From a virus: 20,226 nt of DNA. Location: IMG/VR virus record IMGVR_UViG_3300034418_004469, positions 1 through 20,226 of that record; one strand, written 5' to 3'. Shown here piece after piece: positions 2-7,698 of the stretch; position 1 is the first letter of the stretch, and every line of letters begins with the position of its first letter. Below the pieces are notes generated by a model, which saw only the letters and a program-made list of their open reading frames with translations, was not told where the DNA came from and searched no databases. The position numbers and the translations under genes are program-made.

Positions 2-124
2 ACAGAAACAGCTCCTTCAAGTACTGGAGAAGTTGCAAGATTGATAGGACACAACATTTATGACAGTGGAGTTGGTGGTGTAATTATACGTTTCCAACCA
101 GATAATACATGGATAGTAATTTAA
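2..124 (+). CDS. C-terminal end of a gene cut by the window edge, probably a virion/tail protein
   Basis: An open frame runs in from the left edge and ends at TAA 122-124, leaving about 40 residues. The tail ends in GVGGVIIRFQPDNTWIVI, a beta-strand-like hydrophobic ending. No start is visible. The next gene begins 11 bases downstream and looks like a tail-fibre or appendage protein, so this is most likely another virion or adhesin protein. That is inference from position only; the fragment is too short to assign to a family. Confidence 0.6.
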   Translation, partial: TETAPSSTGEVARLIGHNIYDSGVGGVIIRFQPDNTWIVI

Positions 125-135
125 AATAATAGAAA

Positions 136-726
136 ATGGCAAGTGTCAATGGTGTTCCTTTTGCAAGTATGAATTCAGGAAGTACATACATTCCTTATAA
201 TGATGGTACTTCTTTTGTAGATAGTGGGTTTTATTATAATGGACCTGCAGGATATGAAACAACATTACTTCAACACACAGATGCATTTACTACAACTTTA
301 AAATTAGATAGTTATAATAGTGAGTTCACTTTTGGTAGGGCTACGGCAGGTGGTATAAGTACATCTGCAACTGCAGGTTTAGGTATTTTTTTAATGGCAT
401 CTCAATTTTCTTTAGGTAATGCTGAAACAACAGGCTCAAGTGTTGCTGCAAGTTGGGGAATGGCTATTGATGGAACTCTCGGAGAAGCAATTATTGGATG
501 TGGAACATCATCTCCTTCAAATGGAGTATTTAGAGCAAGTTCAGGTAATGGTGCTATTTGGTTAGGGCCTTATGGAGTTAGTTGGGGTGTTGGATTTAAT
601 ACAAATACTGATTCAATATTAATAGGTTCAAGTTTAATGTCTCTAGGTTCATACAGAAACATTATTAAATGGGCTCAAGTTAATGATGAACTGGGGAATA
701 CATATTTTATACCTTTATATGCTTAA
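136..726 (+). CDS. Glycine/serine-rich putative tail fibre or virion appendage protein
   Basis: The 196-residue protein is rich in Gly, Ser, Thr and Asn. It has alternating hydrophobic/polar stretches and recurring aromatic residues, including two related segments near residues 139-151 (AIWLGPYGVSWG). There is no signal peptide, membrane segment or enzyme motif. This composition is typical of beta-structured phage fibre tips and baseplate appendages. The start follows an A-rich leader (AATAATAGAAA) without a Shine-Dalgarno site. It lies 11 bases after the preceding truncated gene and 11 bases before the next one, consistent with one late operon. The family is not recognised; the fibre-like role is inferred from composition and position near the lysis and head modules. 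Confidence 0.6.
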   Translation: MASVNGVPFASMNSGSTYIPYNDGTSFVDSGFYYNGPAGYETTLLQHTDAFTTTLKLDSYNSEFTFGRATAGGISTSATAGLGIFLMASQFSLGNAETTGSSVAASWGMAIDGTLGEAIIGCGTSSPSNGVFRASSGNGAIWLGPYGVSWGVGFNTNTDSILIGSSLMSLGSYRNIIKWAQVNDELGNTYFIPLYA

Positions 727-737
727 TAAATAAAAAA

Positions 738-1031
738 ATGGGACTTTTAATTACAAACGCAAAGTTTAAAAACACAGATATTGTAGCACCACAAGTGTAT
801 GCACGTCTTCAATATTTTGCACATGCTGATGGAAAGAAAACTAATGTAAAACTTATTGTATCTGACAATAAAGTAAATGCATTGGCTTATAAAGAAATTA
901 GTACTAATTTGCCTGAAACTTTGATTATAACTTTACAAGATGGACAAAATCAAGACCTTTCAACTATTCATGATATGGTAAAAGGTGTTCTTGAGATAGC
1001 TGGCTTTGTTGTAACTATTGATCTAACTTAG
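738..1031 (+). CDS. Small phage protein of unknown function (97 aa)
   Basis: The 97-residue protein appears to be alpha/beta and soluble, with no membrane segment and no cysteine. It contains a basic patch near residues 31-38 (ADGKKTNVKL) and ends in a hydrophobic strand (IAGFVVTIDLT). It starts after a leader of A residues, 11 bases after the fibre-like gene, and ends with TAG. Co-directional spacing suggests co-expression with the virion genes on its left, so a small tail or assembly component is possible. I do not recognise a family. Confidence 0.6.
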   Translation: MGLLITNAKFKNTDIVAPQVYARLQYFAHADGKKTNVKLIVSDNKVNALAYKEISTNLPETLIITLQDGQNQDLSTIHDMVKGVLEIAGFVVTIDLT

Positions 1032-1054: not shown

Positions 1055-1192
1055 ATGACTGTAGAACAGGCTCTAAAAATAGTTGAACAAGCATTAAATC
1101 AAGCAACCGTAAAAGGAGCATTTGATCTTAATGAAGTTTCTCATATCATACAAGCACTTCAAGTATTAAAACCTTTAGTTGATAAAAAATAA
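1055..1192 (+). CDS. 45-residue helical protein of unknown function
   Basis: This short open frame begins with ATG at 1055, follows an AAACCAA leader (1042-1048) and ends with TAA at 1190-1192. The product, starting MTVEQALKIVEQALNQA, is predicted to be almost wholly alpha-helical. It has two amphipathic stretches (residues 3-17 and 26-42) separated by a KGAFDLNE turn. It fills the space between two larger genes with the same strand and composition, and its leader matches those of other genes here, which supports a real gene. The function is unknown; a two-helix assembly or adaptor protein would fit. Confidence 0.6.
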   Translation: MTVEQALKIVEQALNQATVKGAFDLNEVSHIIQALQVLKPLVDKK

Positions 1193-1214
1193 TTGTATAT
1201 TTGCTTAAAACCAA
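1193..1214 (+). promoter_or_regulatory. Bacteroidota-type promoter -7 box with AAACCAA leader
   Basis: TATATTTG at 1196-1203 is an exact match to the Bacteroidota -7 consensus TAnnTTTG and is followed after four bases by AAACCAA (1208-1214). The same arrangement occurs at 7667-7685. The ATG of the 730-residue protein is at 1221, so the leader would be very short. A clear -33 TTG at the usual distance is not evident. Confidence 0.5.
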
Positions 1215-1220
1215 CAGCAG

Positions 1221-3413
1221 ATGAACAATTTATGTCAACTAGCATTAGCTAACGGAGGCTCTGTCAATTATCTTATAATCCCAGGAAATATTACTGAAGG
1301 TCTAGGTCTTACTAATCCATCTATCTATTATAGTGATGGATTATATACATTAAACCTAAGACACGTTCAATATGCACTATATCATAGTGAGAATGAACAA
1401 AAGTACCAGACTCCCTGGGGTCCTCTAGCATATCTTAACCCAGAAGATGACGTAACTCTTAGAACTACAAACTATGTTTGTTATCTAGATCCTAATACTT
1501 TAGCAATTGATAGTCACTATAAAGTAGATACATCTAAGTTAGATGTGACTCCAGTATGGGAATTTATTGGATTGGAAGATGCAAGAATTGCATATTGGAA
1601 TGATAAGTTCTATCTCACAGGTGTACGTAGAGATACTAAAACAGATGGTGAAGGAAGAATGGAACTATCTGTAATTGATAATAATGCTAAAGAAACTGAT
1701 AGATATAGAATAGAACCTCCTACACATTCTTATTGTGAAAAGAACTGGATGCCTATTCTTGACATGCCGTACCATTATGTTAAATGGACTAACCCTACAG
1801 AAGTAGTAAAAGTAGATCCTAAAAAAGGTACCTCAGTTTCAGTAAAGATTGTTGAGCAAGATGTCACTTTTCCTAGAGATATTAGAGGTGGATCCCAAGT
1901 TATTACATATGGTGATTACTATGTAGCCCTTACACATGAGGTAGACCTATGGTTTAATGAACAAGGAAAGAAAGATGCTCATTATTATCACAGATTTATT
2001 GTATGGGATAAAGACTGGAAGATAGTTCATTATTCTCCAGAGTTTAAGTTTATGACAGGAAATATTGAGTTCTCCTGTGGTTTAGCATATGATGGTGATA
2101 GTTTTATTATCCCATTTGGTTTTCAGGACTCTACGGCCTTTATTTTAAAACTTCCTGTCACAGTTTTTAACCAAATATGTGACATACCAGAGACAGAAGT
2201 AAAGCCAATTACTAGAGGCATAACACCATCTAAGTTAGAAAAGTTCATCAATGACCCATATAATGCATCAAAAGCATTTGATATGGGTAACTATTACTTT
2301 ACTAATTTACACTATGCATCTGCAATGTCATTCTTTTTAAGAGCTGCAGAATACAGCAAGAATGATGAACTAACTTATGATTCATTAATTATGGTTGCTA
2401 AGTCTTTATCTGCATTAGGTAGAAGAAAAGTAACTGAGTTAGGTCTATGGCAAAATGCTATTGCTTTTGAACCAACAAGACCAGATGCATACTTACATAT
2501 AAGTGAGTATCATGAGCAAATGAAAAACTATCATCAATCTTATTCACATGCTGTAATGGGATTACACTTTACAGAAGTAGGTAGTACTCATTACTGGGAA
2601 CTTATGTTCCAAAAAGCAGTTGCTGCATGGTGGATTGGTAGAGGTAAAGAAGCAAGAGATACATTTGCATATCTTGCTGACAATGCAAAGAATCTTACAG
2701 AAAAGTACCAAAAATTGGTACAAACTAATATTACATCATTAGGTTCAGGACCAGATCCATTCCTTAGATACCATAAAGGATTCTATGATCAACTAAGATA
2801 TAAGTTTCCAGGAGCAGAAAAGATTGAGAAAAACTATTCCCAGACATACCAAGATATGTTTGTTCTAACAATGCTTAATGGTAAAAGAAATGGAACTTAT
2901 TTTGAAATTGGTTCAGCAGACCCATACTATGGTAGTAACTCAGCTTTATTAGAAGAATTTGGTTGGACAGGAACATCTTTAGAAATTAAAGAAGATGAGG
3001 TAACTAAATTTAATAAAGTAAGAAAGAATAAATCTACATTAGCAGATGCTACTAAGTTTGATTATAGTATTCTTAAAGGTCACATAGATTACTTACAAGT
3101 AGACTGTGAACCACCAAGCACAACATTTGACATTCTTAAAATGATTCCATTTGAACAGTGTACATTTGGTGTAATAACATTTGAACATGATTACTATGCT
3201 GATATTACAAGATCTTATAGGGAGTTAGGAAGACATTATCTTTTATCAAAAGGATATGTACTTGTAGCAAGTAATATAGCACCTAATGATTCTAGTGCAT
3301 ATGAAGACTGGTACGTGCATCCTAAGTATGTTGATGATAAAATACTTAAGATAATGCTCGCAGCTGATAACACAGTTAAAAATGCAGAGAAATATATGCT
3401 AGGAATGTTATAA
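1221..3413 (+). CDS. Three-part protein: GH130-like beta-propeller, TPR-like helical middle, FkbM-type methyltransferase
   Basis: The protein is 730 residues long. Residues about 20-320 look like a five-bladed propeller of the GH130 (beta-mannoside phosphorylase/hydrolase) type, with blade motifs NPSIYYSDGLYTLNLR (32-47), GLEDARIAYWNDKFYLTG (117-134), EKNWMPI (173-179) and RGGSQVI (222-228). Residues about 340-510 are helical with TPR-like pairs, such as AFDMGNYYFTNLHYASAMSF. Residues about 538-705 resemble the FkbM SAM-dependent methyltransferase family: SQTYQDMFVL (540-549), YFEIGSADP (560-568), a GWTGTSLEI segment (581-589) and DYLQVDCE (623-630). The propeller could bind or cut a glycan and the FkbM domain methylate a sugar. 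A role in modifying virion or host-surface glycans is inference. The gene has its own promoter-like box and lies between the fibre and lysis genes. There is no signal peptide, so the action is cytoplasmic or on the virion. Confidence 0.7.
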   Translation: MNNLCQLALANGGSVNYLIIPGNITEGLGLTNPSIYYSDGLYTLNLRHVQYALYHSENEQKYQTPWGPLAYLNPEDDVTLRTTNYVCYLDPNTLAIDSHYKVDTSKLDVTPVWEFIGLEDARIAYWNDKFYLTGVRRDTKTDGEGRMELSVIDNNAKETDRYRIEPPTHSYCEKNWMPILDMPYHYVKWTNPTEVVKVDPKKGTSVSVKIVEQDVTFPRDIRGGSQVITYGDYYVALTHEVDLWFNEQGKKDAHYYHRFIVWDKDWKIVHYSPEFKFMTGNIEFSCGLAYDGDSFIIPFGFQDSTAFILKLPVTVFNQICDIPETEVKPITRGITPSKLEKFINDPYNASKAFDMGNYYFTNLHYASAMSFFLRAAEYSKNDELTYDSLIMVAKSLSALGRRKVTELGLWQNAIAFEPTRPDAYLHISEYHEQMKNYHQSYSHAVMGLHFTEVGSTHYWELMFQKAVAAWWIGRGKEARDTFAYLADNAKNLTEKYQKLVQTNITSLGSGPDPFLRYHKGFYDQLRYKFPGAEKIEKNYSQTYQDMFVLTMLNGKRNGTYFEIGSADPYYGSNSALLEEFGWTGTSLEIKEDEVTKFNKVRKNKSTLADATKFDYSILKGHIDYLQVDCEPPSTTFDILKMIPFEQCTFGVITFEHDYYADITRSYRELGRHYLLSKGYVLVASNIAPNDSSAYEDWYVHPKYVDDKILKIMLAADNTVKNAEKYMLGML

Positions 3414-3418
3414 ATTTT

Positions 3419-3430
3419 TCGTATATTATA
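3419..3430 (+). promoter_or_regulatory. Weak promoter-like sequence before the lysis/membrane operon
   Basis: GTATATT at 3421-3427 repeats the core of the boxes at 1195 and 7666, but continues as ATATG rather than TTG. It sits only a few bases before the ATG at 3434. It may be a degenerate -7 box starting the lysis block; alternatively the block is read through from upstream, since no terminator is seen after 3413. Confidence 0.25.
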
Positions 3431-3433
3431 TGT

Positions 3434-3940
3434 ATGAAGTATATACATATATCACGGATTAATCTTTCAACAGTATTGCAGGTATGTCTAATAGTGATGT
3501 GCCTGTTTCTACTTATGAGAAAACCTAAGCAGGTTTATCCAATAAGTAAGCAGAAAACTATAGAAAGAAGAATAGAAGGTAAAGAGACTATTATTAAGGA
3601 ACAAGGTAAAGTAATTGACAACAGTAAATCAATTATAGCTCAACTTAATAATGGTCTTTCTGATTTACAGGCTCAACTTGAGGAAGTAAAAAATACTAGA
3701 GATACCATCAATATCATCCAGATTCAGGATACAATGATCCATGTACTTTATAAAAGAGACAAGGAAAAAGATGCTATTATAGCAGCTCAGGACACTATTA
3801 TACAAGCCCAGAGATATGTTATAAATTCAAAAGATACAATTATAGCAACTCAAGCCTTTGATTTAAAAAGAATAAAAAGACAGAGAAACCTTTCAATACT
3901 ATTGAATGGAATATTAACTACAGGTATAATTATCAAATAA
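3434..3940 (+). CDS. Single-TM coiled-coil protein, inner-membrane-spanin (Rz)-like
   Basis: The 168-residue protein has a short N-terminus, one membrane segment at about residues 11-29 (STVLQVCLIVMCLFLLM) and a long coiled coil from about 38 to 150. It ends in a hydrophobic segment (153-167). The C-terminal half repeats a DTII or DAII pattern (residues about 114, 121 and 135), so the rod is built of short repeats. An N-terminal anchor plus a long periplasmic coiled coil is the architecture of Rz-type i-spanins, which fuse the inner and outer membranes at lysis. Its place in the block with holin-like and endolysin genes supports this, but no outer-membrane partner with a lipobox is evident nearby. 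The TAA at its end overlaps the next ATG (3938-3942). Confidence 0.55.
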   Translation: MKYIHISRINLSTVLQVCLIVMCLFLLMRKPKQVYPISKQKTIERRIEGKETIIKEQGKVIDNSKSIIAQLNNGLSDLQAQLEEVKNTRDTINIIQIQDTMIHVLYKRDKEKDAIIAAQDTIIQAQRYVINSKDTIIATQAFDLKRIKRQRNLSILLNGILTTGIIIK

Positions 3941-4239
3941 TGGACAATTCAACTTTAACCATAATAATCTTTATATGTTCAGGAATATTAGGATTATTTG
4001 GATTCTTTCTTAAGACAGCTTATAATGATGCAAGAAGAGATATAGATTTACTTTTTTCATCTGATCAAAAGAAAGCAGAAGATCTAGGTAAGCTCAAAGG
4101 AAAGATTGAGTTAGTAGAACAAGAAGCACGTCTCAAATATCAGGCCATACAAGAGCAAACTCAACTTGAGATAAAAAACTTAGCAAGAAGTGTTGCTGAA
4201 CTATCTGAAGCAATCAAAAGAATTGTACTTGAAAAATAA
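3940..4239 (+). CDS. Small single-TM coiled-coil membrane protein of the lysis block
   Basis: The 99-residue protein has an N-terminal membrane segment at about residues 7-25 (TIIIFICSGILGLFGFFL) and a charged coiled coil from about 30 to 98. Architecture and size are like small phage membrane proteins of the haemolysin XhlA or spanin-accessory type. Start and stop overlap both neighbours by TAATG, so translation is probably coupled. It could pair through its coiled coil with the upstream spanin-like protein. The lysis role is inferred from context; the specific family is not recognised. Confidence 0.5.
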   Translation: MDNSTLTIIIFICSGILGLFGFFLKTAYNDARRDIDLLFSSDQKKAEDLGKLKGKIELVEQEARLKYQAIQEQTQLEIKNLARSVAELSEAIKRIVLEK

Positions 4240-4343
4240 TGAACGAGTTATTTAAATCTAAAGAGTTTAAACAATTACCATTTATCCATAGAGTTTGGAT
4301 TAGACTTAAAATTGCTTTTTTTGAAACAATATCTATGTTATGA
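4239..4343 (+). CDS. 34-residue basic, amphipathic peptide coupled to both neighbours
   Basis: The ATG at 4239 overlaps the previous stop (TAATG, 4237-4241). The frame ends at TGA 4341-4343, which overlaps the next ATG (ATGA, 4340-4343). The product begins MNELFKSKEFKQLPFIHRVW and continues as an amphipathic aromatic-rich helix (residues 18-34). The perfect fit between two overlapping genes argues for a real gene. Another short protein at 7158-7316 has a loosely similar basic/aromatic segment. The function is unknown; membrane-surface association is plausible. Confidence 0.55.
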   Translation: MNELFKSKEFKQLPFIHRVWIRLKIAFFETISML

Positions 4344-4528
4344 AAAATATAAGTTCAATCAGAATGGTTTATGCATTAGTATGTATTTTACTATTTGTAG
4401 CTTCAGCTTGTAATTTTTGGCCACTAGTAATATTTATTGCAGTCATGCTCTTTATAGGGTCAATAACAACTTTGTGCCCATCTAAATGGTTTTTTGAGAA
4501 ACTAGGATTTGGTAAATCTAAACTTTAA
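4340..4528 (+). CDS. Two-TM small membrane protein, DUF2892-like
   Basis: The 62-residue protein has two hydrophobic segments at about residues 9-24 and 27-43, then a CPSKWFFEKLGFG segment (about 46-58). A pair of helices followed by a Cys-Pro and a short amphipathic end ending in LG resembles the DUF2892 membrane domain found alone or in YgaP-type proteins; this is recognised by pattern only. Its stop overlaps the start of the histidine kinase (TAATG, 4526-4530), so the two are probably made together. It could be a partner of the kinase in the membrane or an antiholin/holin-like protein; neither is shown. Confidence 0.5.
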   Translation: MKNISSIRMVYALVCILLFVASACNFWPLVIFIAVMLFIGSITTLCPSKWFFEKLGFGKSKL

Positions 4529-5412
4529 TGGCAGCACTAGATGGCATATCAATTAGATCCAGAATTTGTCTAGGATGTGCCACACTTATAATGCTTGTGT
4601 TCTTTATATTTAAAACACTTGTAGTATTTAGATATATACATCATAGCACATTTACTCATTACTTTGAATGGCTATCTGTAATAATATTCATGCCCCCATT
4701 CTTTATTGTAGTTAAAGAGTTTCTTGAACAGAAACAAATGACACGTAATGATTTAGATAAAAAAAATATCTATCTTGAACATGCAGCTAAAATTATAAGA
4801 CATGATATGCACTCTGGTATTAATACTTATCTACCTAGGGGTATATCTTCACTTAAGAGAAGATTAACACAAGAAGATATTGATTCATTAAAAATTAAAT
4901 CTCCATTACAGTTAATTGAGGATGGTTTATCACATGCTAGAAAAGTATATGCAGGTGTATATGAGTTTACTAATCTTGTAAAGTCTGGATCTGAAATGAG
5001 TAAGAAGATGTGTAATGTACACCATATTCTTGAAGATTATTTAAAACTTACAGCATATAAAAATTCAGTTATTCTTGATAGTTCACTTGAAATAGATTTA
5101 GAGCTTAATGAAGCACTTTTCTGCACAGCTCTGGATAATCTTATCAGAAATGGTTTAAAATACAATGACAGCCCAACTAAATGGGTTAAAATATACATAG
5201 AAAATAAATACCTCTATATTGAAGATAATGGAAGAGGAATAACAAATAATGAATTTATAGAATTATCAAAACCATACGTTAGAAAAATAGGACAAAAAGA
5301 AGAAGGTTCTGGATTAGGTTTAAATATCTGCAATGAAATTTTAAGAGAACATAATTTCAGTATTGAAGCTGAAAAAACTAATACCGGTACTAAAATAAAA
5401 ATTAAGATATGA
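4528..5412 (+). CDS. Membrane-bound sensor histidine kinase
   Basis: The 294-residue protein has two membrane helices (about 12-35 and 44-63) joined by a loop of only about 8-10 residues, so it has no periplasmic sensor domain and resembles intramembrane-sensing kinases. A linker (64-85) leads to an H-box with His92 in IIRHDMHSGI. The ATP-binding domain has an N-box (DNLIRNGLKYND, N204 and N208), a G1 box (EDNGRGI, D233, G235, G237) and a G2 box (GSGLGL, 260-265). All residues needed for ATP binding and autophosphorylation are present. The start overlaps the stop of the upstream gene, and the end overlaps the next ATG (ATGA, 5409-5412), where the cognate regulator begins. A phage-encoded kinase among lysis genes is unusual. 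The signal is unknown; membrane state or superinfection is inference. Confidence 0.85.
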   Translation: MAALDGISIRSRICLGCATLIMLVFFIFKTLVVFRYIHHSTFTHYFEWLSVIIFMPPFFIVVKEFLEQKQMTRNDLDKKNIYLEHAAKIIRHDMHSGINTYLPRGISSLKRRLTQEDIDSLKIKSPLQLIEDGLSHARKVYAGVYEFTNLVKSGSEMSKKMCNVHHILEDYLKLTAYKNSVILDSSLEIDLELNEALFCTALDNLIRNGLKYNDSPTKWVKIYIENKYLYIEDNGRGITNNEFIELSKPYVRKIGQKEEGSGLGLNICNEILREHNFSIEAEKTNTGTKIKIKI

Positions 5413-5846
5413 TAGAGACATTAATGTTAATAGATGATGAGAACTTATTCCACCTTGTATTTGAGGATGCATGTTCTATATTAGATATGGCACTTTCTAT
5501 AGAAGCATTAGACAGTTCTGATGAAGCAGATAGAATGTTCCGTAAATGGTTTCCTGAAGACCCTAATCATGAGAGACCACAGTGTGTATTTGTAGATTTA
5601 AATATTATAGGTTCATCTTTTGATGGCATAGAAATGATTAGAAAAATTAATCATGAATATGGGAATGGATGTGTGATAGGAATTATATCATCTTCACAAG
5701 ATCAAGTAGAAATTGAAAAAGCTAAAGCAGTTGGTGCTCAATTTTGGATTATTAAATCTGATGAGATTGAACCTAGACTAGAAGAATTTAAAAAAGATTA
5801 TGAAGGGTATAGAACAAAATCATTACCTTTCAAAGTTTATAGATAA
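5409..5846 (+). CDS. Single-domain response regulator (receiver only)
   Basis: The 145-residue protein is one receiver domain. The Mg-binding acidic pair is D9-D10 (LMLIDDE), the phosphoacceptor is D63 (VFVDLNI), the switch Ser is S94 or S95 (GIISSS) and the conserved Lys is K116 (WIIKSDE). Spacing of these residues matches CheY-type receivers. A basic tail of about 15 residues (YRTKSLPFKVYR) follows. There is no DNA-binding or enzymatic output domain, so it must act by protein contact or as a phosphorelay step. It overlaps the kinase gene by ATGA and the following coiled-coil membrane protein by TAATG. The kinase is its likely phosphodonor, and the next gene product is a candidate target by position. 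Confidence 0.85.
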   Translation: MIETLMLIDDENLFHLVFEDACSILDMALSIEALDSSDEADRMFRKWFPEDPNHERPQCVFVDLNIIGSSFDGIEMIRKINHEYGNGCVIGIISSSQDQVEIEKAKAVGAQFWIIKSDEIEPRLEEFKKDYEGYRTKSLPFKVYR

Positions 5847-6639: not shown

Positions 6640-7158
6640 ATGAGTCATAATTTTTTAAAAGAAGAAAAATCCCCACAGATATTAGTTCAAGCTGTAAAGA
6701 TGCTTGGTACTAAAGAGATTGTAGGTAAAGAACATAATCCTGTAATTATGGGGTGGGCTAAAGAACTTGGATTACAAAAAGTATATACTGCAGATGAGAT
6801 TCCATGGTGTGGTTTAGCAGTAGCTTATGCAGCACATAAAGCAGGAGTACAAGTAGTAGATAAACCACTATGGGCACTTAACTGGGCTAAGTTTGGTAAC
6901 AAAGTTGATGAACCTATGTTAGGTGATGTACTCACTTTTAAGAGAAATGGTGGTGGACATGTAGGAATATATGTTGGAGAAGATAAAGATTGCTACCATG
7001 TACTTGGAGGAAACCAAGGAAATGCAATGACTGTAACTAGAATATTAAAATCAAGATTGTATCAAGCAAGAAGAACAGCATGGAAAATTGCTCAACCAGC
7101 AAATGTTCGTAAGATATTTTTGGATGCAAAAGGTGCAATCAGTAAAAATGAAGCATAA
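6640..7158 (+). CDS. Endolysin, TIGR02594/CHAP-like peptidoglycan hydrolase
   Basis: The 172-residue protein resembles the TIGR02594 family of phage CHAP/NlpC-like lysins. The putative catalytic Cys57 lies in PWCGLAVAYAAHKAG (56-70) and the putative catalytic His107 in GGGHVGIYVG (104-113). The conserved VLGGNQGNAMTVTR segment is at 121-134. Such enzymes cleave amide bonds in peptidoglycan. There is no signal peptide, so export would depend on a holin, consistent with the holin-like gene 21 bases upstream. The length is normal for a single catalytic domain with a short basic C-terminal extension. The TAA overlaps the next ATG (7156-7160). Confidence 0.85.
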   Translation: MSHNFLKEEKSPQILVQAVKMLGTKEIVGKEHNPVIMGWAKELGLQKVYTADEIPWCGLAVAYAAHKAGVQVVDKPLWALNWAKFGNKVDEPMLGDVLTFKRNGGGHVGIYVGEDKDCYHVLGGNQGNAMTVTRILKSRLYQARRTAWKIAQPANVRKIFLDAKGAISKNEA

Positions 7159-7663: not shown

Positions 7664-7685
7664 TTGTATATTTGTTGTAAACCAA
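7664..7685 (+). promoter_or_regulatory. Bacteroidota-type promoter box before the packaging/capsid unit
   Basis: TATATTTG (7667-7674) matches TAnnTTTG exactly and is followed after four bases by AAACCAA (7679-7685), the same arrangement and spacing as at 1196-1214. TTG directly precedes both boxes. It follows a terminator and precedes the ATG at 7699, so it probably starts the head-gene transcript. A canonical -33 element is not clear. Confidence 0.6.
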
Positions 7686-7698
7686 TAAATTAATTATT

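Follow-up and report, generated by a model that had tools for sequence, protein, structure and literature searches.

The window analysed here is a 20,226-base virus record (IMG/VR IMGVR_UViG_3300034418_004469), with matches to phage head families for TerL, portal, and capsid. The portal shares 33% identity with that of the Leptolyngbya phage Lbo-JY46 and 28% with that of csAssE-Sib, and it also resembles, more weakly, those of many gut crAss-like phages. Based on these portal similarities, we assign the window as a fragment of a crAss-related phage. An uninterrupted ORF with an ATG start (1221..3413, + strand) encodes a 730-aa fusion protein, in which a GH130/GT108-like five-bladed propeller (residues 1-322; 1221..2186, +) is followed by TPR helices (residues 337-507; 2229..2741, +) and an FkbM-like SAM methyltransferase (residues about 538-730; 2832..3413, +). 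This union of three folds in a single protein had been proposed in a first-pass annotation and was borne out by models, profiles, and motifs.

Upstream, all on the + strand, the window opens with the conserved C-terminus of a fibre (2..124, comprising 40 codons at 2-121 and the stop), the gene of which is cut by the window edge. Its relatives are collagen-like, as tblastn with positions 2-121 matched the end of the collagen-repeat protein encoded at locus L024 with 82% identity across 38 aa (68% for L017 and 53% for L013). It is followed by a 196-aa ORF (136..726) that has no family match and is perhaps a fibre tip or accessory (L021 and L017 have an ORF of comparable length in this position), and by a 97-aa ORF (738..1031) with 35% identity (E 7e-13) to the 100-aa ORF in the equivalent position of L013. 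A 45-aa ORF (1055..1192) takes up most of the space ahead of the fusion gene, and a similar peptide could be recognized by eye at the same place in L013. On the other side, a CHAP-like lysin is encoded at 6640 (weak Pfam match), which supports the location of the fusion gene between fibre and lysis genes, as annotated at first. Beside the lysis genes, the window also carries a two-component pair (4528-5846), in which a histidine kinase gene (HATPase, 2e-14; motif RHDMHSG) overlaps a response regulator gene (Response_reg, 3e-7); both are also found on the sister contig L134, with 52% and 85% identity. PADLOC gave no defence-system match, and a defence reading was dropped.

Directly before the ATG (1196..1220, +), TATATTTG with a Bacteroidetes-type -7 element (TAnnTTTG) is followed by an inverted repeat. 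The closer fused relatives mostly keep both, and the leader of the fusion gene folds unusually well (z -3.9). A second TATATTTG site with a similar flank, TTGTAAACCAA, is located at 7667-7698 before ORF 7699, which suggests a shared promoter class. Together, TATATTTG and the inverted repeat would fit a shared promoter or operator; by itself, the 8-mer shows no enrichment in the window. A sigma-70 scan remained at chance level (14 sites found vs 13.9 expected), and a promoter of this type was rejected. Hence, what stands of the earlier claim that the gene has its own promoter-like box is the conserved element at 1196, whereas sigma-70 sites are not enriched and the 45-aa ORF occupies most of the gap. 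The Bacteroidetes-type box moreover hints at a host among the Bacteroidota.

The window protein alone stays below every Pfam cut-off and gives almost no signal in Pfam or PHROGs, and the analysis thus had to rely on its relatives. An IMG/VR scan confirmed at least 598 of them, and 79 loci were kept. In more than 20 of the 79, the protein is encoded by one fused ORF of 730-770 aa with 55-88% identity to the window protein. Since these relatives are fused alike and an overlapping contig is identical to the window sequence, an assembly join can be ruled out, and the suspicion that two genes had been joined by error did not hold. In other phages, the same domain order is found as two adjacent genes, with a 323-350-aa propeller gene directly followed by a TPR-methyltransferase gene (e.g., TAA ATT ATG); an in-frame stop subject to recoding was dismissed, as an ATG directly after the stop marks two genes. 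The Synechococcus phages S-SCSM2R and DSL-LC02 both have this split of homologous propeller and TPR-FkbM genes, for which tblastn reached up to 44% identity at 97% query coverage (both values from S-SCSM2R, where the genes overlap by 8 bases), and carry an additional DUF6445 or radical SAM/SPASM domain in the second gene.

In a tree of 62 propellers, 23 of the 24 fused rows fall into one supported clade, which also holds four members with propeller and TPR only; the fusion in L046, which sits on a long branch, is probably a second, separate event. The family is essentially viral. Nine matches from genome collections (L085-L093) lie on draft contigs labelled as bacterial or archaeal, and a bacterial origin was rejected, as all nine loci are short or binned contigs and the two that were read closely carry phage genes; these, L087 and L090, look as if phage contigs had been binned with cellular genomes. 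A TAA lies inside the methyltransferase domain of the fused relative L014 (3646-3648) and reflects either a decayed gene or a sequencing error. The Actinomycetia phage DSL-LC01 encodes a stand-alone, distant propeller (L004:4968-5849; 25% identity), which adjoins a methyltransferase gene near a TauD dioxygenase. Among the best 50 matches of a full-length fold search, none spanned all three domains, and the fusion architecture was not found described in the literature searched.

The AlphaFold2 model of the propeller reached a pLDDT of 88.8 and a pTM of 0.89, and in the full-length model (pLDDT 83.8, pTM 0.69) the propeller, the helices 337-507, and an alpha/beta methyltransferase-like domain are visible. 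About 40 of the best 50 PDB fold matches of the propeller (E 1e-9 to 1e-5, TM 0.45-0.65) come from GH130 phosphorylases/mannosidases and GT108 Leishmania MPTs, the latter including the MPT-1/2/4-type entries 2b4w, 6q50, 6q4z, 6q4x, and 6q4w; the domain has five blades, and its closest solved structures belong to GH130. Predicted viral folds are nearer than any of these (TM 0.72-0.79) and stem from pithoviruses, an uncultured phage, and giant-virus proteins. The giant-virus matches are named as fucosyltransferase, pyruvyl transferase, or LicD family, names that might stem from other parts of long proteins, and several carry glycan-modifying domains. With Pfam GH130 (PF04041), the propeller alone scored 11.7 bits against a curated cut-off of 26 bits and remained under the cut-off in the whole record too. 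We accordingly do not file it as GH130, even though it appears to work like this family, with which (as with GT108) it shares the five-bladed propeller and an N/R/ED/K/H/Y/D active-site pattern; the initial GH130-like designation thus holds for fold and active-site residues, but not for Pfam membership by score. What sets it apart from GH130 and GT108 enzymes, beyond 10-17% identity to solved structures, is that it is phage-borne and fused to or paired with TPR-FkbM.

Invariant or nearly invariant in the propeller are N32, R47, E119, D120, K174, R222, H239, Y255, and D303. In BT3780, the -1 mannose is bound by N74 and D363 and the +1 sugar by R89 and E141. The candidate acid of this enzyme is D142, its beta-1,2 specificity is determined by K199, and a pair of Glu occupies the positions of the phosphorylases' basic phosphate-binding residues (PMC4599007). 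By profile alignment and spacing, N32 and D303 correspond to the -1 mannose contacts, and the invariant D120 lies in the ED/YD-PR motif, with E119-D120 kept. The 15-residue spacing of N32 and R47 in the phage family equals that of N74 and R89 in BT3780. K174 is part of EKNWMP, 54 residues past D120, and the corresponding distance to the K-N/D motif is 47-60 in most bacterial GH130 sequences that have the motif; H239 aligns near YHG. For K174, R222, and H239, the correspondence to GH130 is at motif or profile level. Unlike in GH130 mannosidases, the putative phosphate-contacting His/Arg are kept in the phage family, and no hydrolase-specific acidic pair was seen in the family alignments, so that the conserved pattern resembles a phosphorylase or transferase more than a hydrolase. 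Since the residues for sugar binding, the catalytic Asp, and the likely phosphate contacts do not vary, the propeller resembles a mannosyl transferase/phosphorylase. A glycan-cleaving role, as initially considered, is not favoured by the retained His/Arg and by viral relatives that are built together with transferases.

The helical segment was confirmed as TPR by a family profile search against PDB (E 1e-10), by matches of several members to Pfam TPR models, and by the helices of the model. As for the C-terminal domain, FkbM Pfam (PF05050) matched 8 of 25 relatives at E <= 0.1 (best 1.3e-4), with no match for the window protein itself, and a PDB sequence-profile search with the domain gave no match. 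Its motifs agree with the FkbM assignment made at first: SAM motif I (E/D-x-G) is present as GTYFEIG and the D-x-E motif as VDCEP (within IDYLQVDCEPP), with E62, G64, and D123 (numbering of alignment A6) invariant or positionally conserved. With motif I and the downstream acidic motif, it retains the SAM-binding features common to FkbM methyltransferases, from which it differs by its divergence and its fusion behind TPR helices. Elsewhere, the propeller has other C-terminal partners (FkbM with radical SAM/SPASM, FkbM with DUF6445, WavE, or a GT25-like domain on the propeller), and these partners are exchanged among glycan and protein modifiers. Genes near family members encode collagen-repeat proteins, Peptidase_S74 fibres, 2OG-Fe oxygenases, cytidylyltransferases, and glycosyltransferases. 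Tryptophan-halogenase-type genes account for 4 of 91 neighbours in T4-like and split loci (alignment A5), and one Acb1 anti-CBASS gene occurs in the other neighbour set (A4). On L090, a contig of a T4-like phage that was binned with a Rhodobacteraceae MAG, a gene run with radical SAM/SPASM-like Cys motifs (1330-5841) precedes the propeller gene.

Among the 31 fused loci with at least 1 kb of upstream sequence, a giant, collagen-like gene directly precedes the fusion gene in 24 (hand count, near-duplicates included), often at a distance of 36-50 bp and with up to 308 unbroken Gly-X-Y triplets. The other seven have no collagen gene in the available stretch, in two cases probably because the contig ends first. 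Collagen matches were found in 8 of 9 whole fused records and, above cut-off, in 1 of 11 sister records (TerL sisters of at least 20 kb without the fusion gene), corresponding to p ~6e-4 in Fisher's exact test (by hand, with kinship and fragment length ignored). In DSL-LC02, the split-gene module likewise lies beside collagen-like fibre genes, and in some T4-like phages a Thr-poor collagen gene (5-9% Pro, 8-11% Thr) is located 20-30 kb from the propeller gene. The repeats linked to fused genes (5,523 triplets) are unusual in composition, with 0.7% Pro, 1.2% charged residues, 27% Thr, 12% Ser, and 24% Gln at the X/Y positions; the sole sister collagen without a fusion gene has 26% Pro and 4% Thr in only 23 triplets. 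Prolyl or lysyl hydroxylation of the fibre was rejected, as the repeats contain almost no Pro or Lys and a search of seven fused records for a PF13640 hydroxylase found none. E. coli prophage collagens depend on Pro and charge for stability, and Thr glycosylation has been named as a further collagen stabiliser (PMC3368898). Thr-rich repeats poor in Pro and charge, together with the lack of PF13640, lead to a model in which a sugar on Thr would replace hydroxyproline and salt bridges.

We thus favour, with a probability of roughly 0.5, that the fusion protein adds O-methylated glycans to the fibre of its own phage, probably on Thr residues, as a substitute for hydroxyproline. The propeller fold and its active-site pattern, structural relatives in viruses with glycan-modifying domains, the linkage and co-occurrence with collagen genes, the composition of the repeats, the missing PF13640, and the exchanged partner domains all argue for this reading. 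The protein would probably be a cytosolic bifunctional enzyme, the propeller of which attaches a mannosyl-type sugar, donated by GDP-mannose, mannose-1-phosphate, or a similar compound, most likely to Thr/Ser of the Gly-X-Thr repeats or to a sugar already present. The TPR arm may grip the fibre chain or a fibre chaperone, while the FkbM domain would O-methylate the added glycan, presumably in a subsequent step. In a fibre without proline or salt bridges, such decoration could stabilise the triple helix and/or shape adsorption. Counting against Thr glycosylation, GH130-fold enzymes act on sugars and are not known to act on Thr, and the first sugar may hence be added by another enzyme. The seven fused loci without a collagen gene and the distant, Thr-poor collagens of some T4-like phages also argue against the favoured reading.

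The first-pass annotation had left open whether virion glycans or the host surface are modified, and the virion option is now better supported because the gene is tied to that of a collagen-like fibre, whereas a host or superinfection role found no specific support. Mannosylation and O-methylation of host surface polysaccharide or its cytosolic precursors (O-chain, capsule), blocking superinfection or the loss of progeny onto debris, would fit with FkbM enzymes commonly methylating sugars, with WavE- and GT25-type partner domains known from LPS synthesis, and with a corresponding interpretation of glycosyltransferases in host-recognition clusters of marine myophages (PMC7029224). However, the gene comes after a fibre gene, its presence tracks collagen, and the TPR arm suggests a protein partner, so that we regard this option as unlikely, albeit as the main alternative. 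Less probable still is that another virion protein (capsid, tail, or a non-collagen fibre tip) is glycosylated and methylated and that the collagen link reflects nothing but shared transfer of fibre modules: the adjacent collagens are Thr-rich and Pro-free and the linkage recurs, even if loci without nearby collagen also lie among fibre or tail genes and glycosylation of capsid and tail proteins has been reported for mycobacteriophages (cited in PMC12619734).

Two further scenarios concern the propeller itself. It could be a phosphorylase or hydrolase that degrades beta-mannosides, feeding the infection or stripping host glycans, with the methyltransferase as unrelated cargo. We consider this improbable despite GH130 phosphorylases being the nearest solved structures, as fusion or adjacency to TPR-FkbM is kept across distant phages, the other partners are transferases, and the alignments do not display the acidic pair of hydrolases. 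The protein could also be a virion component adjoining the fibre genes, with the propeller as glycan-binding adhesin and a degenerate methyltransferase fold; invariant catalytic-type residues and SAM motif, a propeller that is often a separate gene, and no fibre or trimerisation domain seen on it in the loci studied render this the most improbable option.

The proposed decoration of the phage's own fibre has parallels in known systems. Bacillus anthracis BclA is a collagen-like spore glycoprotein. Oligosaccharides on its collagen region, cited in PMC3368898 and PMC9614988, resemble what is proposed here, but BclA is a spore protein with unrelated enzymes. Mimivirus L230, a bifunctional collagen lysyl hydroxylase/glucosyltransferase, is likewise a viral enzyme with two activities that modifies the virus's own collagen-like protein (PMC9614988), the role put forward here for the fusion protein. 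The folds, however, are unrelated: L230 combines GT25-like and 2OG-Fe oxygenase domains and acts on Lys, whereas propeller and methyltransferase face repeats without Lys here, and neither a GT25-like nor a 2OG-Fe hydroxylase domain was found in the window protein by Pfam or in the full-length model.

Few cases of phage virion glycosylation are known, and the gene pair makes it testable how collagen fibres without proline retain their fold. Tentatively, and with more doubt than for the window protein itself, a widespread class of phage enzymes may decorate Thr residues in proline-free collagen fibres with O-methylated mannosyl-type glycans as a glycan substitute for hydroxyproline in viral triple helices, via a propeller glycosyltransferase family common to phages and giant viruses. 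The family is abundant in aquatic viromes (at least 598 confirmed loci) and mostly unannotated, and its nearest structural kin in giant viruses point to a shared viral glycan toolkit.
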